Shown: in pieces, positions 15,548 through 29,563 of the stretch | Layout of the letters: each line of letters starts with the position of its first letter | How positions within the stretch are numbered: position 1 is the first letter of the stretch | The notes under the pieces: generated by a model | Seen by the model: the letters and a program-made list of their open reading frames with translations, nothing else | The model's database searches: none | What the model was told of the DNA's origin: nothing | Program-made: the position numbers and the translations under genes | Virus record (IMG/VR): IMGVR_UViG_3300000576_000012 | Coordinates: 1 to 30,060 of that record | Length of the DNA: 30,060 nt | Reading direction: 5' to 3' (one strand) | From: a virus

Positions 15548-18500
15548 ATGTCTTGGAAGAAATACTTTAGACCTGTTAATTCAGCGTTGCCAGCACCAAC
15601 AGCATATTCAGACCCATCAAGTTCTGTTAGTAACTTTTCTAGCTGGCTACCTGAATACTATCAAGGTCCGCCAAATCGAATCATGCGTTACTTGCAGTAT
15701 GATCAAATGGATATGGATCATGAGATATCTGCTGCACTTGATACGTTGGCAGACTTCTCAACTCATTTAGATGAAGACACTGGTGTGCCGTTTGAAATTA
15801 ACTATTCAGAAGATGCAAGCCCAAGTGAGATTGAAGTATTAGAAAAAAGTCTAAAGCAGTGGTGCAATCTAAACGAATTTGATAGAAGATTATTCAGGAT
15901 TTTCAGAAGTGTTCTGAAGTATGGCGATCAGTTTTTCATACGACATCCTCGTACATATAAACTACATTGGGTAGATCCAAGTACAGTTGAGAAAGTACTT
16001 GTTAATGAAAGCCAAGGTAAGAAAGTAGAATCGTTTTTCATTAAAGATCTAGACTTGAATTTACAGTCACTGACAGCCAGCAACATGAATCGTAAAACAC
16101 AAAGGGGTTACGATAGTGCTGATACAGTATTTCCAAATGTGCCTTACACAGGCCAAGTTGGTGGTGGTGGATATGGAAATATGTCTAGCTATGGTGGTGT
16201 GGACTATGCAGAAGGCGAAGCATTTCAAGTAGATAGTACTCATGTTGTTCACATGACACTTTCTGAAGGCATGACTTCAAGCTGGCCTTTCGGTATCAGT
16301 ATACTTGAAACAGTGTTCAAAGTTTACAAGCAAAAAGAGTTACTAGAAGATAGTATATTGATATACCGCATACACCGTGCACCAGAAAGACGAATATTTT
16401 ACATTGACACAGGAACTATGCCTCCAAATAAAGCAGCACAGTACCTTGAACGAGTTCGTTATGAAGTACAACAAAAGAGAATTCCAAGCAGAACTGGCGG
16501 CGGGCAGTGCTTTGCAATGGATACAAAAGTACCTCTTTTAGATGGACGTACATTAACCATAGCAGAGTTAACCAAAGAGCATGCAGAAGGTAAGAAAAAT
16601 TGGGCATATAGTTGTGATCCTGTTACAGGAGAACCTATGCCAGGATTGGTATCTTGGGCAGGCGTTACTAAGAAAGATACATCTGTTATAAAAGTAACTT
16701 TAGACAATGGAGAAAGCATTATATGTACTCCAGAGCATAATTTTCCAGTACTAGGAAAAGGAAAAGTGAAGGCTAAAGATTTAGTTGTAAACGAAGACAA
16801 TCTAATTAGCTTTCATACCAGAATGAAATCAATAAATGAAAAAAACGATAATGCTAGTGAATATGAGCAAGTGTTTGATCATTCTGATAAAAAATGGAAA
16901 TTTACACATCGTGTAGTAGCACGATACATGAAGGAGCTTGGAAAGCATCAGGAGTTGATTTTTAGAAAAACAGCTAAAGACAAAAGCAAAAATGTAATTC
17001 ATCATGGTGATTATAATAAGTTCAACAACAATCCAGAGAATCTATATTTCATGAATGGTCGTGATCACTTTTATCTTCATGCTCGTTATAGTGGTTGGCA
17101 TATGTTCACTGAAGAGAGAAAAGCTGAAGCTATTAACAAGAGATTAGAGACACTGGCTAACAGGACAGAAGAAGAAAAAGCTCAAGCATCAAAACAGCGA
17201 AGTGAAATTGCGAAAACTTTCTGGGCTAAAATTAAGAGTGATCCAGTAGAATATAACAAACATAAAGAAAGACTAACAGAACACTTATCAAAAATTGAAA
17301 GTCCACCGTTTGATAATAAGTCTGTTGTAGTAAACGATAGAATGTTTGAAATTATAACGGAATATACTATTTCAGAAAATCCAACAAGAAAAGGTCTATG
17401 TGATCTACTTAAAAGTGATAAAGAATTTATGGAGCTATATGAAAATTTAAATTTTGATGATAGCAACAAAATTAATAAGATTGATCCAAACGGCATATCT
17501 AGAGATAGTATACTAAAGATTGTTAAAAATCATGGATATAAAGACTGGAGGCATTTTGTTAGAAGCCATGGACTAAAAACTATACAGCCAGTAAGAAAGC
17601 TTCGTTGGGAGCAAAAGCAATTGTCTTATTTTGTGGACATAGTTAAAAAAGAAGGAATATCTAGTAAAAACGATGCAGTAAAACGACTACAAAATGATTC
17701 AAAATTTATGAAATGGTTTGCTGAGTTAAATAAGAATATCAAAGGAAATTCAAAGACTACTAATTTTAGTGGCAACACGTTTAATGTATTCCTTAATGAA
17801 TTTGGATATGCAAATTGGTCTGATTTCAAAAACAAACTTGAATTGTTTAATCATAAAGTGGTTTCAATTGAATATCTAGAGGATAAAATTGATGTAGGTA
17901 CACTAACAATTGACAGGGATGAGGAGTTCCATCCTCATCATACGTTTGCATTAGAGACTGGAGTGTACACATATAATTCAATTACAGATGCTGCATATAA
18001 TCCTCTTTCTTCATTGGAAGATTATTACTTTGCTGTAAGTGCAGAAGGTCGTGGAAGTAAAGTAGAAACGCTCCCAGGTGGTGAAAACCTTGGATGCTTC
18101 TCACTTGATACCAAAGTCAAACTTATGGATGGTAGAGATTTATCTATATCTGAAATCAGTGAAGAACTAAAGCAAGGTGAAGAGTTATGGACATATAGCT
18201 GTCACCCTGTTACAGGAGAAGTTGCTCCTGGTTTTATTTCTTGGGCGGGAAAGACAAGAAGTCAAGCTGATGTCGTGAAGATAACTCTTGATAGTGGTGA
18301 TGAGATCGTCTGTACACCTGATCATAATTTCCCAATCAAAGGTGTTGGATTTGTTGAAGCCAAAGATTTATCAGTTGGTGAATCACTGATACCACTTTAT
18401 ATTGAGGGTGACTTGATATATTGCCCACATAAAAAAACTTGGGTGAGTAAAACAACGTTTGGTGTACCAACTCAAGAGCAAGAAAAAGATGTGGAACTAA

Positions 18501-19246
18501 ACCACAAGATTGCTGCAATAGAGTATCTTGAAGAAAAACTTGATGTTGGAACACTAACTGTTGATATCACTGAAGAATATCATGATTATCACACTTATGC
18601 ACTGAGTGTTGGTGTATTTGTTAAAAACTCCATTGATGATCTCAGATACTTCAACAACAAGATGATGAGAGCACTGGGTGTTCCAAGTGGATATCTACCA
18701 ACTGGTCCAGAAGATGGAACCAATGCTTACAGCGATGGTAGAGTTGGTGCAGCATTTATTCAAGAGTTCAGATTTTCTAGAGTATGTCAGCGCTACCAGA
18801 GGCTGATAGCTCCTGTGTTTGATAGAGAGTTTAAGTTGTTCTTGAAGCACAGAGGTATTGAAGTTGATAACTCAATATTTTCATTATCGTTTACACCTCC
18901 GCAGAACTTCTCAGAGTACAGAAAGTTAGAGTTGGATAGTGCTTATGCAAACTTGTATAACTCAGTTGCAGCGAACGAAAATCTGAGTAGAAGATTTGCA
19001 TTGAAGAAGTACCTTGGGTTGAGTGAATCAGAGATTGCAGAGAATGAAAGGCTTTGGAGAGAAGAAAATGATGTGAGCCATTTGACTCAAGATAAGAGAC
19101 CTGGGCTTGACATGAGACAAGCTGATATCAGAGCACCAATGGATACAGATTTTGATGACTTTGGTTTTGGTGATCCAGATATTGGGGAACCAGACATTGG
19201 GGGAATAGACGTTGGTGAACCTGATATAGGTGGAGATGAAATCTAA
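15548..19246 (+). CDS. 20: Portal vertex protein gp20 precursor with two inteins
   Basis: The 1232-residue precursor contains a T4 gp20-type portal (SWLPEYYQGPPNRIMRYLQY near the N-terminus; LLEDSILIYRIHRAPERRIF near 280; then LEDYYFAVSAEGRGSKVETL and the PGGENLG motif; IDDLRYFNNKMMRALGVPSG after the second intein). Residues 321-810 and 850-1027 are inteins. Both insertion points are followed by Ser, the splice nucleophile. Removing both leaves 564 residues, close to T4 gp20 (524). Gp20 is the dodecameric DNA entry channel of the head. The acidic C-terminal tail has four DIG(E/G) repeats. The stop overlaps the next ATG by one base. Confidence 0.92.
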   Translation: MSWKKYFRPVNSALPAPTAYSDPSSSVSNFSSWLPEYYQGPPNRIMRYLQYDQMDMDHEISAALDTLADFSTHLDEDTGVPFEINYSEDASPSEIEVLEKSLKQWCNLNEFDRRLFRIFRSVLKYGDQFFIRHPRTYKLHWVDPSTVEKVLVNESQGKKVESFFIKDLDLNLQSLTASNMNRKTQRGYDSADTVFPNVPYTGQVGGGGYGNMSSYGGVDYAEGEAFQVDSTHVVHMTLSEGMTSSWPFGISILETVFKVYKQKELLEDSILIYRIHRAPERRIFYIDTGTMPPNKAAQYLERVRYEVQQKRIPSRTGGGQCFAMDTKVPLLDGRTLTIAELTKEHAEGKKNWAYSCDPVTGEPMPGLVSWAGVTKKDTSVIKVTLDNGESIICTPEHNFPVLGKGKVKAKDLVVNEDNLISFHTRMKSINEKNDNASEYEQVFDHSDKKWKFTHRVVARYMKELGKHQELIFRKTAKDKSKNVIHHGDYNKFNNNPENLYFMNGRDHFYLHARYSGWHMFTEERKAEAINKRLETLANRTEEEKAQASKQRSEIAKTFWAKIKSDPVEYNKHKERLTEHLSKIESPPFDNKSVVVNDRMFEIITEYTISENPTRKGLCDLLKSDKEFMELYENLNFDDSNKINKIDPNGISRDSILKIVKNHGYKDWRHFVRSHGLKTIQPVRKLRWEQKQLSYFVDIVKKEGISSKNDAVKRLQNDSKFMKWFAELNKNIKGNSKTTNFSGNTFNVFLNEFGYANWSDFKNKLELFNHKVVSIEYLEDKIDVGTLTIDRDEEFHPHHTFALETGVYTYNSITDAAYNPLSSLEDYYFAVSAEGRGSKVETLPGGENLGCFSLDTKVKLMDGRDLSISEISEELKQGEELWTYSCHPVTGEVAPGFISWAGKTRSQADVVKITLDSGDEIVCTPDHNFPIKGVGFVEAKDLSVGESLIPLYIEGDLIYCPHKKTWVSKTTFGVPTQEQEKDVELNHKIAAIEYLEEKLDVGTLTVDITEEYHDYHTYALSVGVFVKNSIDDLRYFNNKMMRALGVPSGYLPTGPEDGTNAYSDGRVGAAFIQEFRFSRVCQRYQRLIAPVFDREFKLFLKHRGIEVDNSIFSLSFTPPQNFSEYRKLELDSAYANLYNSVAANENLSRRFALKKYLGLSESEIAENERLWREENDVSHLTQDKRPGLDMRQADIRAPMDTDFDDFGFGDPDIGEPDIGGIDVGEPDIGGDEI
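16508..17977 (+). mobile_element. Intein 1 with HNH homing endonuclease domain (490 aa)
   Basis: The intein runs from C321 (block A, CFAMDTKVPLLDGR) to N810, before S811. Block B reads ICTPEHNFP. The C-terminal blocks read VGTLTIDRDEEFHPHHTFAL and end VYTYN. The usual penultimate His is Tyr here. Between the splicing halves lies an HNH-like endonuclease: VIHHGDYNKFNNNPENL (H485, H486) and a further RDHFYLH. Two DNA-binding-looking repeats follow (SDKEFMELYENLNFDDSN... and NDSKFMKWFAELNKN..., each leading to a YKDWRHF or YANWSDF motif). It interrupts gp20 between GGGQ and SITDAAYN. The HNH assignment is strong; the repeat domain is described only. Confidence 0.92.
18095..18628 (+). mobile_element. 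Intein 2, mini-intein without endonuclease (178 aa)
   Basis: The intein runs from C850 (CFSLDTKVKLMDGRDLSISE) to N1027, before S1028. Block B is VCTPDHNFP and the end reads YHTYALSVGVFVKN, with Lys instead of the usual penultimate His. It is clearly related to intein 1: both share W-YSC-PVTGE and SWAG motifs after block A, and VGTLTVD before block F. No HNH or LAGLIDADG domain is present, only a short linker. It splits the conserved portal motif PGGENLG from SIDDLRYF. Confidence 0.92.
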
Positions 19247-23578: not shown

Positions 23579-23595
23579 TATAAATAGTGTATAAT
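23579..23595 (+). promoter_or_regulatory. Late promoter plus TATAAT element, endonuclease 1
   Basis: A perfect TATAAATA (23579-23586) is followed by TATAAT (23590-23595). The arrangement is repeated at 25284-25300 before the second endonuclease. AAAGGATAGG then precedes the ATG at 23615. Confidence 0.7.
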
Positions 23596-23614: not shown

Positions 23615-25267
23615 ATGCTAAATGAAACCGAAACAAAAATATTTTTAGAAAAGCACAATTGGATTTCTTACAGTAACAGATTAAAAGCTCAGCATCTGGA
23701 TTTAATTGAATATTTGAACTCAAAATATCCGCATAAAAGAATATCAGAGCAACTGTGGTTATATGTCAACAATCATAATAGTCCACCCACTTGTTTAGTT
23801 TGTGATAAGCCTTCACGATTTAAGAATATCAAATTAGGCTATTCTGATTTCTGTGGATCAAAAACGTGTTTCTCTCAATACCGAAAAGCAAACAGCAAAA
23901 GTGCAGCTGCGATTGCAAACCAATCAGTGAATCCCCCGCAGTGTAAGCACCCACAATGTGAAAAACCAGTGAAAAAGAACTCACAAGGTCTTTGGAGATC
24001 GTATTGTAGTTTTGAGTGCAGAGGCCAACACAACTCGTTAAAAAGCAGAGACAAAGCCAGAAAAACTTGGACTGAGAAGTATGGTGTTGATCATCCAAGA
24101 AAATCATCTGAGGTGAATGAGAAATTAAAACAAAAATGGATGGATGCACATGGAGTAGACAACCCAGCAAAACTTGATTGGGTTCAAGAAAAGATGCGTG
24201 CCACTTGTTTAGAAAAATATGGCAGAGAGAATGGTGGTCACATGAATCATCATCAGCAAAATGAAAACCTTTACTTGTTGAAAGACAAGACAGAGTTGCA
24301 GAAACTGTACCCATCTAATAGTCCATGTGATATTGCTGAAATAGTTGGATGTCATATCTACACTGTGTATGAGCATTTGCGTATGCATGGGTTGACTTCT
24401 TATGGGAAATCGTCTTTTGAAAAAGAAGTAGTCAATTTTTTGGAAGATTTGGGAGTTGAAAACATAGTTGAAAATGACAGAAAGATACTTAACGGAAAGG
24501 AACTAGACATAGTTCTGCCAGACTACAATATGGCAATAGAGTGTAATGGTCTGTATTGGCACACAGAGAAATACAAAGAAGGAAAAGAGTATCATAGGCA
24601 AAAATTTTTGGAGTGTGAGCAAGCAGGAATTCAGCTACTGTCTATCTTCAATGATGCGTGGGATGACAAAAAAGAAATAGTCAAGAGCATCATTAGACAC
24701 AAGATTGGCAAGAGCGGTAGACGAATATTTGCAAGAAAATGCACGCTAAAAAGAGTGAACAACAGAGACCTCAAACAGTTTTTGAATAGCAATCACATCC
24801 AAGGGTTTGTTGGTGCATCTTATGCATACGCTTTGTTTTACCATCAAGAGATAGTTGCAGTGATGACTTTTTCTTCTCCAAGATCAGGGATCGGTAAAAA
24901 TATAGAGAATTGCTACGAAATTGTGAGATATGCATCTTCTGTACCAGTAGTTGGTGGTGCAAGCAAATTACTTTCTAACTTTACCCGAGATCATTCACCA
25001 TCAGTGATAGTTTCTTACAGTGACAACGAGTGGAGCACTGGGGATTTGTATCTGAAATTAGGCTTTGAACTTGATAGAGAGTTGCCTGCTAGTTACAGTT
25101 ATTTGGCACCTGGTGGGAGAAAAATGTATCATCGTTACAGATTCGCAAAGCATCAATTGGTGAAAGAAGGTTTTGATCCAAGCAAAACAGAAAAACAAAT
25201 AATGCAAGAACGTAATTTTCTGAGAGTTTGGAATTGTGGGAAGCGAACTTGGAAACTTACACTGTGA
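23615..25267 (+). CDS. Homing-type endonuclease 1 (Vsr-like, EDxHD family)
   Basis: This 550-residue protein has, in order: two Cys-rich zinc-finger segments (CLVCDK...CGSKTC; CKHPQCEK...YCSFEC); KYGVDHP-type repeats common in phage homing enzymes; a helix-turn-helix (CDIAEIVGCHIYTVYEHLR); and a Vsr-like nuclease core (FEKEVVNFL, KELDIVLP, IECNGLYWHTE, then YHRQKFLECEQAGIQLLSIF). A C-terminal domain follows with a GNAT-like pattern (VGGASKL...SYSDNEWSTGDLYLKLGFE) ending VWNCGKRTW. It stands alone between gp23 and unrelated genes, a typical site for a free-standing homing enzyme targeting a conserved late gene. Domain names rest on pattern recall. Confidence 0.82.
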   Translation: MLNETETKIFLEKHNWISYSNRLKAQHLDLIEYLNSKYPHKRISEQLWLYVNNHNSPPTCLVCDKPSRFKNIKLGYSDFCGSKTCFSQYRKANSKSAAAIANQSVNPPQCKHPQCEKPVKKNSQGLWRSYCSFECRGQHNSLKSRDKARKTWTEKYGVDHPRKSSEVNEKLKQKWMDAHGVDNPAKLDWVQEKMRATCLEKYGRENGGHMNHHQQNENLYLLKDKTELQKLYPSNSPCDIAEIVGCHIYTVYEHLRMHGLTSYGKSSFEKEVVNFLEDLGVENIVENDRKILNGKELDIVLPDYNMAIECNGLYWHTEKYKEGKEYHRQKFLECEQAGIQLLSIFNDAWDDKKEIVKSIIRHKIGKSGRRIFARKCTLKRVNNRDLKQFLNSNHIQGFVGASYAYALFYHQEIVAVMTFSSPRSGIGKNIENCYEIVRYASSVPVVGGASKLLSNFTRDHSPSVIVSYSDNEWSTGDLYLKLGFELDRELPASYSYLAPGGRKMYHRYRFAKHQLVKEGFDPSKTEKQIMQERNFLRVWNCGKRTWKLTL

Positions 25268-25283
25268 AAGGTTTTTTTCTGCC

Positions 25284-25300
25284 TATAAATGTTGTATAAT
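25284..25300 (+). promoter_or_regulatory. Late-type promoter plus TATAAT, endonuclease 2
   Basis: TATAAATG (25284-25291) and TATAAT (25295-25300) repeat the layout at 23579-23595, including the preceding T tract and GCC. The ATG at 25289 lies inside this element. Confidence 0.55.
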
Positions 25301-25312
25301 ATACAAGGGGGT

Positions 25313-26737
25313 TTGTCACGGCAAGAAATAGAAAAACTCGTTAAAGACTATCCAAAACACTATGTTCAAAAAACAAAAGCCAACAGTGAACTGAGAGAGT
25401 GGGTAGAAAGTAATCATACTGTAGATTGTGATCACTGGCCTACCATGATCTACTCCGCTATTAATAACGTTAGTAACATATGTGAAAAAGGAAAATCGCA
25501 AACCATAAAAAGAATATCTCTTGGATTTACTGGTTGTGGACCCGCAAGAGACTGCGAATGTACACGCGACAAAATAGCCAGTAAAACAAAAGAGTCACTT
25601 CGTGAACTACTGACTGAAAAAAAACAATCAGCCAACGAGAAAAGAAAAGCCACGATGGTTGAAAAATACGGGTATGAATTCAATAGTCAGCGCCCAGACA
25701 TACACCATGTCTGGTGCAAACCCAAAATGAATGAACAAACTCACACACTGTTATCTGATCCAGAGTGGGTTGAGGATCAGTATGTAGTGCAAAGAAAATC
25801 TCTGACTGAAATAAGTAACGAACTAGGTGTGTACTATGGAACAGTGGGTGAGTATGTTAGAAAACATGGCTTTCATGTTAGGAGGGTTGTTAACCAATCT
25901 ATAGTGGAAAAGCAAGTAGCTGATTTTTTGAACGATATTGGGGTTGAGTACGCTACAAGTGACTGGGACACTCTTGATACAAAAGAGTTAGATATTGTAG
26001 TCCCATCTAAGAACTTGGCAATAGAAGTCAATGGTCTATATTGGCATAGTTATCACCCAAGTGGTGAATGTAAAGAAGACAAGTATCGTCATTTGTGTAA
26101 AACAAACGAAGCGGAGTCCAAAAACATCAATCTGGTGCACATAACAGACTGGGAGTGGAATAATAGACAGACGGCTGTGAAGTCACTTCTACAAAGCCAG
26201 TTGAAGTTAAACAAAAAAATAGGAGCCAGGAAAACAAAACTATTAGAAGTTTCTGCCAGTCAATGTAGAAACTTTTTAAACGAAAATCACACACAAGGAT
26301 TTGCTCCTGCCAAAAAACATATTGTGCTTGTCCATGATGACAAGATAGTTATGGCGTGTAGCATCGGTAAGAATCGTTTTTCTAAAAATAGCTACGACGA
26401 AGTGATTAGACTAGCCACAGCACAAGGTGTTACTGTAGTTGGTGGGCTGAGCAAAATCATAAAACATTTAGATTCACCACTGGTAAGCTACGTTGACAGA
26501 GACAAGTTTAATGGTAGTGGATATGAGTCAGTTGGGTTTGTGCGTAGAAAAACCACTAGTCCAGGTTATTTTTGGACTGACGGTAATGTTCCAATATCAA
26601 GATATCGTTGTCAAAAGCACAGATTATCAAAATGGCTTACAAGTTATGACAGTGAAAAATCAGAAAGTGATAATATGTTCTATGCTGGTTATAGAAGATA
26701 TTGGAACTGTGGTAACTGGGTGTATGTATTGGAGTGA
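25313..26737 (+). CDS. Homing-type endonuclease 2 (Vsr-like), paralogue of 1
   Basis: From TTG 25313 this is 474 residues (482 from ATG 25289). I prefer TTG because ATG 25289 lies within the promoter, and AAGGGGG sits just before the TTG; this start is uncertain. It shares with endonuclease 1 a helix-turn-helix (LTEISNELGVYYGTVGEYV), the nuclease core (VEKQVADFLNDIG, KELDIVVP, IEVNGLYWHSY, then KYRHLCKTNEAESKNINLVH) and the C-terminal GNAT-like domain (VVGGLSKI...SYVDRDKFNGSGYESVGF) ending YWNCGNWVY. The N-terminal zinc fingers are missing or diverged (a CGPARDCEC remains). Identity is modest, so the pair is an old duplication or two separate arrivals. Confidence 0.8.
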   Translation: MSRQEIEKLVKDYPKHYVQKTKANSELREWVESNHTVDCDHWPTMIYSAINNVSNICEKGKSQTIKRISLGFTGCGPARDCECTRDKIASKTKESLRELLTEKKQSANEKRKATMVEKYGYEFNSQRPDIHHVWCKPKMNEQTHTLLSDPEWVEDQYVVQRKSLTEISNELGVYYGTVGEYVRKHGFHVRRVVNQSIVEKQVADFLNDIGVEYATSDWDTLDTKELDIVVPSKNLAIEVNGLYWHSYHPSGECKEDKYRHLCKTNEAESKNINLVHITDWEWNNRQTAVKSLLQSQLKLNKKIGARKTKLLEVSASQCRNFLNENHTQGFAPAKKHIVLVHDDKIVMACSIGKNRFSKNSYDEVIRLATAQGVTVVGGLSKIIKHLDSPLVSYVDRDKFNGSGYESVGFVRRKTTSPGYFWTDGNVPISRYRCQKHRLSKWLTSYDSEKSESDNMFYAGYRRYWNCGNWVYVLE

Positions 26738-26770: not shown

Positions 26771-27178
26771 TTAACTTGATTTGAAGTTCTTTAATTTCAT
26801 TCTTCCCCTGATATAGTGGAGGTTGTTTAGTTTTTTTTGGTATTGTATTTCTTTGACTGTTCTGTAGTCATTCAGTAAATCTTGTTGTTCTTTTGTTTTG
26901 AATTTTGTTTTGCATATATGTGTTAGTCCCTTTACTTCTTCTTTGGTCATTTCAGCGAGATGAAATTTTTTGAATGTTTCATCAAAATAATGTGTATCAG
27001 TTATGAACCAACATTTTCCATCTACCTCAAACCAAGAAAGATCACCGTACTTGTACAGTCCATTCCTATGTAGTATGGGCAAAGATTTCTTGTAATGATG
27101 TGAATGATTATTCAGTAAAATAGTTCTAACATTGGGAATAGTCATCCATTTGCACAGCTTTAGGACCTTAAGATTCAT
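26771..27178 (-). CDS. Unknown protein, last gene of the small-gene operon
   Basis: This 135-residue basic protein is not recognised. It has a Lys/His-rich start (NHSHHYKKSLPILH) and a central beta-like part (YGDLSWFEVDGKCWFITDTHYF). Charged helices with an LTHICKTKFKTKEQQDLLNDY segment follow. It is not an obvious member of the five-gene paralogous array upstream, though the YGDLSWFEVDG strand could be a distant relative of their core. The AAAGGA overlapping the previous stop is about 13 nt from its ATG. A second in-frame ATG at 27145 is an alternative start. Confidence 0.6.
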   Translation of the reverse strand: MNLKVLKLCKWMTIPNVRTILLNNHSHHYKKSLPILHRNGLYKYGDLSWFEVDGKCWFITDTHYFDETFKKFHLAEMTKEEVKGLTHICKTKFKTKEQQDLLNDYRTVKEIQYQKKLNNLHYIRGRMKLKNFKSS

Positions 27179-27186
27179 TGGAAGTG

Positions 27187-27519
27187 CTATCCTTTGTCCT
27201 TTGCTTCTTCCAGAAGGTTATCAATTTGTTCTTGTGTCAATTCAATACAATTGACTTTTTTGTCTAACTGGCGTCTTAGTGTGGTATAGAGTTCATGTAC
27301 ATGCACTATGGAACCATGTGTGCACCAGTTGTAGACATCACCCCTGGTCATGTGAGTTCTCCAGTTCACCACACTTGAGTTAGGACTTATGTCTTGTAAG
27401 TCTAAGTATGCGTAGTGTATGGTCCATATGTCTTTTTTGCGAATTCCGTAATTGCCATCTTTGAACTTAACAATTGTTGGTTGCTCTTGCTTCAACATCT
27501 GTTTCAACATTTTAACCAT
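27187..27519 (-). CDS. Paralogous small protein, array copy E
   Basis: This 110-residue protein carries the array core: PTIVKFKDGNYGIRKK (about residues 14-29), YLDLQD, VVNWR, and VYNWCTHGSI, then a charged helix LTQEQIDNLLEEAK. The family is not one I recognise. The pattern of short strands with invariant Gly, Arg, Asp, Trp and Cys suggests a compact beta fold with a C-terminal helix. AAGGAAGG lies before its ATG inside the preceding gene. It is downstream in the operon led from 28842. Confidence 0.75.
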   Translation of the reverse strand: MVKMLKQMLKQEQPTIVKFKDGNYGIRKKDIWTIHYAYLDLQDISPNSSVVNWRTHMTRGDVYNWCTHGSIVHVHELYTTLRRQLDKKVNCIELTQEQIDNLLEEAKDKG

Positions 27520-27527
27520 TTTGTCTA

Positions 27528-27824
27528 TTACCTTCCTTTTAATCTTTCTGTGAAAAGTTCTTTATTTACTTCATCTTCGGTCATACCAGAAGGTTTCACT
27601 TTTTTGTGTTGTAGCTTGTTATAGATTCCATACACAACACCGATGCTACTTTCTGTACACCATGATGAATATGCAGGAATTAATACCACTCTCCAGTTGA
27701 TTTCATTTCTTGAACTTTTGAAGTCCTTTATGTCCAAGTAAGTGAACCACGGAATTGATATGCTAAATTTTCTAATACCGTAATTTCCATCGCTGAATTT
27801 AACAATTCTAAGCTTTTTAATCAT
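27528..27824 (-). CDS. Paralogous small protein, array copy D
   Basis: This 98-residue protein, the shortest copy, keeps RIVKFSDGNYGIRK, TYLDIKD, EINWR and SSWCTESSI, then the helix MTEDEVNKELF. The N-terminal extension is reduced to five residues, so the core starts at the KFSDG strand. It starts 3 nt after the stop of copy C, with AAAGGATG as ribosome-binding site. Confidence 0.75.
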   Translation of the reverse strand: MIKKLRIVKFSDGNYGIRKFSISIPWFTYLDIKDFKSSRNEINWRVVLIPAYSSWCTESSIGVVYGIYNKLQHKKVKPSGMTEDEVNKELFTERLKGR

Positions 27825-27827
27825 GGT

Positions 27828-28163
27828 TCATCCTTTTAATTTTTCACAAAACACTAGCTTATTGATTTCTTCTTCACTTAACCTTGATGAAATCACGGAT
27901 TTTTTTTGTTTTTCGCACAATTTTTTGTGTACTTTATGTACTATATCAAAGTCTGAGTGTGTGCACCATGAATATATACTATCAAGGTTAATACTCACTC
28001 TCCAGGTCACTTCACTTTGATTAGTATCTGTGAAATCCATAATATCTAAAAATATATAAGAACTTGTGAGACGTTCTTTTTTTCTAATTCCATATTTTCC
28101 ATCTGAAAATTTCACAATTGATGGATTCTCATGTCTGAAGTATTCAATGGCTTTTTTAATCAT
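27828..28163 (-). CDS. Paralogous small protein, array copy C
   Basis: This 111-residue protein has NPSIVKFSDGKYGIRKK, FLDIMD, EVTWR, IYSWCTHSDF and the helix RLSEEEINKLVF. It begins 6 nt after copy B. Close spacing and a shared C-terminal helix (xExEIxK) across copies imply descent by tandem duplication. Confidence 0.75.
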   Translation of the reverse strand: MIKKAIEYFRHENPSIVKFSDGKYGIRKKERLTSSYIFLDIMDFTDTNQSEVTWRVSINLDSIYSWCTHSDFDIVHKVHKKLCEKQKKSVISSRLSEEEINKLVFCEKLKG

Positions 28164-28169
28164 GCTCTG

Positions 28170-28478
28170 CTATCTCTTGTTGTCTTTTTCATCATTTAGT
28201 TCTTTCAGTATTTCTTTTTCAGACATAACTTTGACTTTTGTTATTTTTTTATCTAGTACATTTTTTAGTGCTGTATTAGCTTCTGTGATACTACTTGTTG
28301 TGCACCAAGAATACACACGCGGACAGCTGATGCGAGTACGCCAGTTCACTTCATTGCTGTTAAGCTGGTTGTCCGTGATATCTAAGTATGCAGAGAAGAA
28401 AAGCAGTCTTTTTCTGATCCCGTAATTGCCATCAGCAAACTTCACTATGGATGGTTTTTTTCTGATGAATTTGAACAT
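28170..28478 (-). CDS. Paralogous small protein, array copy B
   Basis: This 102-residue protein has KPSIVKFADGNYGIRKR, YLDITD, EVNWR, VYSWCTTSSI and the helix MSEKEILKEL, making it close to the family consensus. It is separated from copy A's stop by a single base. Function is unknown; basic N-terminus, no membrane segment. Confidence 0.75.
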   Translation of the reverse strand: MFKFIRKKPSIVKFADGNYGIRKRLLFFSAYLDITDNQLNSNEVNWRTRISCPRVYSWCTTSSITEANTALKNVLDKKITKVKVMSEKEILKELNDEKDNKR

Positions 28479-28479
28479 G

Positions 28480-28842
28480 TCATTCCCCCTTAGTCTTCTT
28501 TAGTCTTGTTGTGAACAAAAGCCGTTTTAGATCCTCTTTTGATACAGGAGTAGAAGATACTTGATTGTGTTGTAGTTCTTGGTACGTATCAAATGCTTTT
28601 TTAGTAGCAACAACACAAACATTTGAACAGCAAGAGTGAACTCTGTCACACGTGAGATTTGACCTCCAGTTAATTTCTTTGCTTTCTTGAGCATCAATGA
28701 GATCCAAATACTTGTACTCTTTTTCAAATCTAGTCTTTTTTCTGATTCTGTATCTTTCTTCTTGGAATTGTACGATTACAGGTTCTTCTTCAGTTAAGAA
28801 GAGATTTACTTTAACAAACTGGTCTTTCAGAATAGCAAACAT
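28480..28842 (-). CDS. Paralogous small protein, array copy A (divergent)
   Basis: This 120-residue protein is first in the operon. It keeps EPVIVQFQEERYRIRKK, YLDLID, EINWR and VHSCCSN, but the DGxYG turn has become EERYR and the WCT motif is CCS. Either this copy has a specialised role or it is drifting. It lies 6-25 nt below a 5' stem-loop and a good sigma-70 promoter, so it should be expressed early. The C-terminal helix VSKEDLKRLLF matches the other copies. Confidence 0.75.
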   Translation of the reverse strand: MFAILKDQFVKVNLFLTEEEPVIVQFQEERYRIRKKTRFEKEYKYLDLIDAQESKEINWRSNLTCDRVHSCCSNVCVVATKKAFDTYQELQHNQVSSTPVSKEDLKRLLFTTRLKKTKGE

Positions 28843-28871: not shown

Positions 28872-28900
28872 ATCATAGCATATTACAGAAATGATTTCAA
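28872..28900 (-). promoter_or_regulatory. Sigma-70 promoter for the paralogue array
   Basis: On the minus strand TTGAAA (28900-28895) and TATGAT (28877-28872) are exactly 17 nt apart. It overlaps the 3' end of the toxin-like gene, so it sits inside a continuous leftward gene row and gives the array its own early-type start. Confidence 0.75.
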
Positions 28901-29286
28901 CCGGTATGAGAATTTGTGTGATTCTGCTCAAGCTCAGATAGCTTTCTTGCCATCTGCTTTTGTTTTTTGATGTTTGCAGGTTGACCAGTGCCAAGTTGCG
29001 CATGAGAAAACACACCAATGAGTTTTACGACTGTTGGATTTTTGCCAGATAGCTCATATACGATTGAAAGGTCTTGCGTCAAGTGTGCTTTTCGAGCTTT
29101 AGGGAGTGCTTTTTTGTACACACCCCCTGATGTGAAGTGTTGGTCTTTTGCACCAAATGGTTCGAGAGGGTTATTTTGTTTAGTCTTTATGAAGTCTGTA
29201 ACTTTGTTTTCGACACCTGGTGTGTCTTGCATTGCTTTGCTTAGTGATTCAGTCCACAGACTTCCTTTTACGAACTGCACAGACAT
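28897..29286 (-). CDS. RelE/YafQ-like putative toxin
   Basis: This 129-residue protein has a C-terminal half that resembles RelE-superfamily mRNA interferases: KARKAHLTQDLSIVYEL, then a strand VVKLIGVFSHAQLGTG, as in YafQ-type HLxxDLxLIY and GxHSxLF. The sequence FGAKDQHF and GTGQPAN recur in unnamed proteins of marine T4-like phages (from memory). Its ATG overlaps the stop of the 62-residue upstream gene by one base, the coupled order of antitoxin then toxin. Typical catalytic residues cannot be assigned with certainty, so it may be a domesticated relative with another role. Confidence 0.55.
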   Translation of the reverse strand: MSVQFVKGSLWTESLSKAMQDTPGVENKVTDFIKTKQNNPLEPFGAKDQHFTSGGVYKKALPKARKAHLTQDLSIVYELSGKNPTVVKLIGVFSHAQLGTGQPANIKKQKQMARKLSELEQNHTNSHTG

Positions 29287-29474
29287 TAGAAACTATTGCT
29301 CATTGATTGAATTTCTTCAATGATCTGATCACCAGTGAAAGGACCTTCGCCTGCCTCACGAGAGCTTTTGATGATTGCCATCATGTCGTCATCGGAGAAC
29401 TCAGTATCGTTGGTCGCTTCTACATATTCACGAAGTTCTTGTTCGCTATTTTGAATCAGATCAAGAGTGTTCAT
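29286..29474 (-). CDS. Small acidic protein, putative antitoxin
   Basis: This 62-residue acidic protein (NDTEFSDDDMMAIIKSSREA and a C-terminal helix IIEEIQSMS) is placed and sized like the antitoxin of a type II pair, with a one-base stop/start overlap to the RelE-like gene. No DNA-binding motif is visible, so operator binding is not supported by sequence. AAGGA precedes its ATG. It is expressed from a consensus sigma-70 promoter with a palindrome in the spacer. Confidence 0.5.
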   Translation of the reverse strand: MNTLDLIQNSEQELREYVEATNDTEFSDDDMMAIIKSSREAGEGPFTGDQIIEEIQSMSNSF

Positions 29475-29534: not shown

Positions 29535-29563
29535 ATTATATCACCTGTAACAGGCCTTGTCAA
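29535..29563 (-). promoter_or_regulatory. Consensus sigma-70 promoter with palindromic spacer
   Basis: On the minus strand TTGACA (29563-29558) and TATAAT (29540-29535) are both perfect and 17 nt apart. Within the spacer, CCTGT-A-ACAGG (29544-29554) is an 11-bp palindrome placed like an operator that would block polymerase. It drives the 29474-28897 pair. Confidence 0.88.

Follow-up and report, generated by a model that had tools for sequence, protein, structure and literature searches.

Five consecutive small genes (W1–W5) in the IMG/VR record IMGVR_UViG_3300000576_000012, which was analysed over its whole length of 30,060 bases (hereafter, the window), are true paralogues and very probably represent a lineage-specific tandem expansion of a more widespread phage gene. 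Judged from sequence, the array belongs to a broad family of small basic phage proteins that share a YxVRK / W / C pattern and are without prior description.

The five-gene array and its surroundings

The window is a fragment of a T4-like phage genome, with baseplate genes and genes for a late sigma factor, a portal, a head protease and a major capsid protein; the capsid protein of the jumbo phage PA5oct is 77.7% identical to that of the window. The five-gene array is encoded on the minus strand and faces the head genes. Two homing-endonuclease genes (23615..26737, plus strand) stand in tandem directly 3' of the capsid gene, between it and the array, and a methyltransferase-like ORF is found at the record's end, upstream of the array and of two further co-directional genes. 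The relevant features are as follows.

23615-25267, plus strand: free-standing homing-endonuclease gene 1 (phrog_3339; the matches of the two endonuclease genes have E 1e-124 and 1e-87)
25289-26737, plus strand: free-standing homing-endonuclease gene 2 (phrog_3339)
26771..27178, minus strand: 135-aa gene, probably the sixth in the unit, 8 nt after W5, not homologous to the five
27187..27519, minus strand: paralogue W5, 110 aa
27528..27824, minus strand: paralogue W4, 98 aa
27828..28163, minus strand: paralogue W3, 111 aa
28170..28478, minus strand: paralogue W2, 102 aa
28480..28842, minus strand: W1, the first and most divergent paralogue, 120 aa
28848..28867, minus strand: 5' leader hairpin with a 6-bp stem and a loop of 8 nt; its start is close to where transcription is predicted to begin
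28872..28900, minus strand: sigma-70-like promoter, TTGAAA-17-TATGAT with extended TG, 10/12 consensus matches
28897..29286, minus strand: upstream co-directional gene, 129 aa, product unassigned, 54 nt before W1
29286..29474, minus strand: upstream co-directional gene, 62 aa, overlapping the next gene by 1 nt, with a sub-threshold Pfam match only
29535..29563, minus strand: perfect sigma-70 consensus, TTGACA-17-TATAAT with TG, 12/12, upstream of the two co-directional genes

The preliminary description of this DNA had reported five tightly spaced consecutive genes of 98–120 aa, and their lengths, intergenic gaps (1, 6, 3 and 8 nt from W1 to W5) and homology proved to be as described. All 10 pairwise alignments among W1–W5 reached z scores of 16.6–34.9 against shuffled sequences (300 per pair), compared with z <2 for flanking genes against array genes in the same test, and pairwise protein identity was 32–48%. 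Across the five, 15 alignment columns are invariant; the common motif pattern that had been proposed is incomplete in W1, which is without several motif residues, among them DG and the Trp of SWCT. The acidic C-terminal helix had to be abandoned, as the helix is of mixed charge, and each of the five proteins is basic overall (pI 8.5–9.8). The gene at 26771–27178 was considered as a sixth copy and ruled out (shuffle z <2; hhalign probability 0.2%); since this unrelated gene follows after 8 nt, the transcription unit may run past the array into it.

A sigma-70 promoter with a 5' stem-loop had also been proposed, and both were recovered: the 10/12 site with TG at 28900–28872, and a hairpin of −8.8 kcal/mol (z −4.3), which is beaten by a competing fold when the leader is folded together with part of the coding sequence. 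Sites with at least 9/12 matches in the array promoter region numbered 10, against 10.4 expected by chance. Among the 66 sigma-70-like sites listed over the window, only three combine at least 10 matches with TG, and two of these three precede the array. Read-through into the array from the promoter at 29563–29535 is possible, since this 12/12 site with TG precedes the two co-directional upstream genes. Given the sigma-70 sites, the phage's own late sigma factor and a strand opposite to that of the head genes, it can fairly be inferred that the array is transcribed early by host RNA polymerase, in line with the timing originally suggested.

Several further observations concern the rest of the window. 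In PA5oct, the position matching the window's endonuclease pair is occupied by a single Hef-like homing endonuclease. Just upstream of the first endonuclease gene lies TATAAATA (23579-23586), which we take to be a T4-late-like motif (one match vs 1.2 expected by chance). The portal gene (15548-19246) encodes 1232 aa, and its portal match is split into three stretches, apparently by two insertions that resemble inteins, the first of which contains an HNH-like stretch (phrog_7545); the intein motifs were assigned by eye and are presumptive.

Relatives in other phages

A profile built from the window proteins alone retrieved single genes in L010, L006 and L009 (E 2e-9, 8e-9 and 3e-7, respectively), and a profile of the window proteins and these singles, together with the later finds L014, L015 and L106, retrieved L120, L115 and L117 (E 3e-13, 2e-10 and 4e-10, respectively). 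L117 contains two tandem family copies, and tblastn with one of them led to Limnohabitans phage DC31 (E 6e-6) and, weakly, to Curvibacter phage P26059A (E 0.07); the membership of both was confirmed afterwards. A five-protein alignment of these relatives matched 50 IMG/VR loci, one of which was the L010 record again, closing the search loop. In total, 74 ORFs from IMG/VR contigs and the two isolated phages matched the iterated profile, corresponding to 58 distinct proteins with the window's five included. Members, the window copies among them, combine a significant profile match with a common core (the strands and an invariant Arg). The iterative profile search from the five copies, which had been suggested at the outset, reached relatives beyond the window phage and matched no known family.

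The claim that the family is unrecognised was upheld, with no convincing match in Pfam, PHROGs, NCBIfam, PADLOC or the PDB, and a profile match to a well-known structural family, which would have spoken against the original reading, was looked for and not found. No match above cut-off was obtained in the first four databases for W1–W5 or the relatives searched, and none in the PDB sequence search for the family; the PADLOC library, in which W1–W5 found nothing, consists of defence rather than counter-defence proteins. When 53 members were searched against NCBIfam, the best matches, listed without the cut-offs of these families, were to the HAH_0734 family (two members, E 2e-4) and S2_P23 (one member, E 0.0086). 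Rfam gave no match. Direct tblastn of single window proteins against 50,697 phage records returned nothing or chance matches, so that intermediates were needed. Searches of plasmids with one member and of the literature by family peptide strings and topic yielded nothing on the family, and pattern scans of genome contigs, with patterns that fit only the IVKFxDG subfamily, yielded no relative.

Some candidates were rejected. The tblastn matches in CR9 and POP17 (E 6) were attributed to chance: the CR9 match lies on the strand opposite to a gene annotated as primase/helicase, and neither stretch (L121 and L122) was matched in a profile search. Matches in Vibrio breoganii (E 0.6-4) were dropped because the gene that contains them, 2.6 kb long, belongs to a structural region. 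Two pattern scans gave nine matches each, of which those falling within long ORFs were discarded as fortuitous.

The members in the isolated phages, P26059A gp77–gp78 (ASJ79229 and ASJ79230) and DC31 XLZ15419, are all annotated as 'hypothetical protein' and iterated profile searching places them in one family with the window copies. The two copies in P26059A overlap and stand in tandem, resembling the array in arrangement, and the sheet-plus-helix model of a near relative agrees with the fold predicted for W3. They differ from the window copies in number (one or two), in length (85–88 aa), in an N-terminal YNPFK(P/A)H motif and in having no C-terminal helix extension; the DC31 member, unlike the window copies, adjoins a deaminase.

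AlphaFold2 models of W3 (pLDDT 83.6, pTM 0.65) and of a compact relative (pLDDT 83.8, pTM 0.70) agree in having three strands and one more short strand, as well as a short helix and a main one, and W3 has an extra second C-terminal helix; each copy is predicted to form a small antiparallel beta-sheet of three to four strands followed by helices. Within W1–W5, strands 1, 2 and 4 show the least entropy (0.35–0.66 bits; strand 3, 0.86), and the 30–35 and 57–60 loops and the main helix the most (1.7–1.9); on the predicted model, the strands are thus conserved and the loops and helix divergent, which supports this part of the original interpretation. Residue counts and the tree below used 53 of the 58 distinct proteins, leaving out that of DC31 and one each from L141, L154, L169 and L174. 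The strand-2 Arg is invariant in 53/53 members, window copies included, and is followed by K or R in 92%; the other predicted strands have recurrent aromatic residues. The pI exceeds 8 in 54 of the 58 members, compared with 31% among 298 small non-member ORFs from these loci (the p-value of this test, 3e-16, is too small because members are related and not independent).

Fold searches of the PDB with the models found no confident relative (best Foldseek E 1.6), and a BFVD search with the second model gave one confident match, an unnamed 85-aa protein (E 1.4e-5). NMB1088 (3bid; Z 4.7, rmsd 6.2, 57 aligned residues) and the AP2 DNA-binding domains 6sy0 (Z 2.9, rmsd 4.4, 48 aligned) and 1gcc (Z 2.6, rmsd 3.5, 44 aligned) were weak matches tied with unrelated folds. 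They resemble the model as a small three-stranded sheet with a helix, which we take to be the architecture of the AP2 domain, and are set apart from the family by Z scores that are all <5 and by the lack of a PDB sequence match.

The neighbours of the relatives often point to DNA or nucleotide metabolism. A cytidine/dCMP-deaminase homologue lies ≤60 nt from a member in 34 of 61 loci, where gaps were measured from stop-to-stop ORF edges and near-duplicate loci were counted. Most of these loci form one DC31-like clade with a common gene order, but members also stand next to divergent deaminases (29–56% identical to the DC31 probe) in L140, L144, L145/L156 and L158/L161, with Pfam confirming those in L140, L144 and L145. 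Other neighbours include NrdB, whose gene the member in L012 overlaps, T4-type RNase H, Toprim/DnaB primase-helicase, RecT and a PD-(D/E)XK nuclease. Such settings, and in particular the recurrence of deaminases in several lineages and the NrdB overlap, could indicate a protein dedicated to enzymes of nucleotide metabolism (dCMP/cytidine deaminase, ribonucleotide reductase), as their partner or regulator, that was later recruited and multiplied in the window phage. We regard this as improbable, since the association comes mostly from one clade, many members have other neighbours, and neither a deaminase nor a reductase is found near W1–W5 in the window, where they lie instead near the two homing endonucleases.

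In the DC31-like loci (L133 3667-4893, L123 3652-4697 and similar), two deaminase genes flank the member with overlapping ends in a compact conserved cassette. Elsewhere, in the 156-kb contig G001 that contains the L006 relative, approximately 17 small proteins (L182 125-1180, L183 4871-11576 and L188 17462-19305), many Cys-rich and some apparently unrelated, end in a largely similar C-terminal tag, roughly (I/L)P(K/E)(E/D)xF(K/E)(I/L), which could be a targeting, packaging or turnover tag; the L006 family member has a similar ending, SEDVFKI. In the L115 contig, several different small proteins, the family member included, have a common C-terminal helix like ILEELDEAVEERDK (L115 6989-9816; G077 29235-32062 and 50069-50317).

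Copy number and age of the expansion

The 50 records counted, which were chosen for holding a member and are mostly fragments, contain one copy in 43 cases, two in seven and never more than two, compared with five in the window. Twelve of the 61 profile-searched loci were not entered by name: eight near duplicates were left out (L129, L142, L150, L154, L161, L164, L166 and L168), the records of L006, L016 and L117 were entered via L011, L175 and L160, respectively, and the L014 record was counted separately (one copy). The seven two-copy records represent five lineages (G035 repeats P26059A, and G051 and G060 share copies), in four of which the pair is adjacent and in one approximately 3 kb apart. 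The preliminary description had named a finding that would count against its own reading, namely homologues confined to single copies and to housekeeping roles. The family comes about halfway to this: most homologues are single-copy genes, often beside genes of DNA or nucleotide metabolism, which speaks partly against that reading, and the pairs depart from it.

W1–W5 form one clade (support 99/99; 200/200 bootstrap trees), and the adjacency of these homologous genes agrees with the tandem amplification of a small gene suggested earlier. Pairs in other phages are mostly not sisters in the same tree, which has few columns and many unresolved forks. No family member was found in the 28 records with a related capsid, PA5oct included (28 of 81 capsid-bearing loci, mostly fragments), no significant one in the flanks of 80 capsid loci, and no other member when the C-terminal half of the window subfamily was searched against IMG/VR viral contigs; an empty answer in the capsid-relative records is no proof of absence. 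The single clade, taken together with these searches, is the ground on which we consider the expansion lineage-specific.

The expansion is old: nucleotide identity among W1–W5 is 47–57% and dS ranges from 1.0 to infinite, with synonymous sites near saturation. In T6, anti-defence genes are reportedly amplified as segments through the homing endonuclease SegB (PMC13096335), and tifA is amplified in T4 (PMC9391042). The likeness to the array lies in the extra copies of a phage gene, with homing endonucleases also near the array, and the difference in that those amplifications are recent, segmental and under laboratory selection, whereas the array copies are old and diverged; near-identical repeats of the kind left by such events were looked for among W1–W5 and not found. 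As the copies are unlike recent segmental repeats, the link between the endonucleases and amplification is one of proximity only. A precedent for lineage-specific expansion of a small protein is the zinc ribbon of Bacillus phage G, with about 35 copies (PMC7824862): there, too, a small protein was multiplied in one large-phage lineage, but the proteins are unrelated, the window copies being without a zinc-ribbon pattern and numbering five.

These comparisons bear on whether the array is a set of host-takeover or anti-defence factors, in which each copy would inhibit a different host protein and the array would have grown under host-defence selection, perhaps helped by the adjoining homing endonucleases. 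The tandem arrangement, the early-type promoter, the divergent loops and helix, the failure to find a copy in the 28 capsid-relative records and the two endonuclease genes next door, in view of what the SegB report describes (PMC13096335), are all in its favour. Against it stand the base divergence just given, the relatives, which are mostly single genes and often in DNA-metabolism neighbourhoods, and the lack of a PADLOC match, although that library covers defence proteins. Anti-defence use of the array proteins is possible, and we rate the reading as a whole somewhat unlikely, while treating it as the foremost alternative to the one preferred below.

The same divergence could mean that the genes are duplicates, redundant or in decay, which persist through drift or because of dosage and have no divergent function. 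The copies are old and diverged, positive selection cannot be read from W1–W5 because dS is near saturation, and W1 has lost several family residues; yet all five ORFs are intact and tightly packed with no internal stops, and pN is below pS in all 10 pairs, which makes this explanation quite improbable.

Functional interpretation

The reading that we tentatively prefer, short of an even chance, is that of an accessory protein that is early, basic and nucleic-acid-associated, with the divergence among its copies concentrated in loops and a helix. The array genes would be transcribed early by host RNA polymerase, and their products would act as accessory factors of phage DNA metabolism, with the basic sheet binding DNA or RNA; through old serial duplications, the copies would have kept the sheet and changed the loops and main helix, and hence reach different partners or sites. 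A nucleic-acid-associated role was judged the likeliest core role because of the basic charge, the invariant Arg and the DNA-metabolism neighbours. On the other side, a basic pI equally suits binding of acidic proteins or membranes, the deaminase context belongs mostly to the one DC31-like clade with none beside the window copies, and the matches of the predicted model to DNA-binding folds are weak (AP2, Z 2.6 and 2.9). The loop and helix divergence of W1–W5 may also be mere relaxation, given the near-saturated dS and the unreadable signal of positive selection.

A wider proposal would give the widespread family of small basic beta-sheet proteins, with its invariant strand-2 Arg, a general accessory role in the DNA and nucleotide metabolism of phages. 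It would make the five-member early operon a paralogue toolkit rather than a dosage array, with one nucleic-acid-binding sheet and with loops and helix varied for the recognition of different sites or partners; in this full form we hold it to be unlikely. The evolutionary description is secure: the array is a real, diverged five-gene expansion, which is more than ordinary and less than a demonstrated new system.

Overall, hypothetical proteins that looked isolated have been joined into one family with defined sequence features, which is now tied to a recurrent setting and to two phages in culture, namely P26059A, whose two copies are a tandem pair occurring in nature, and DC31, which has one copy; its function is therefore open to direct testing. 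With five natural variants of one predicted fold, the array stands at the extreme of the family and offers a way to ask whether small early genes are expanded for partner change or only for dose.
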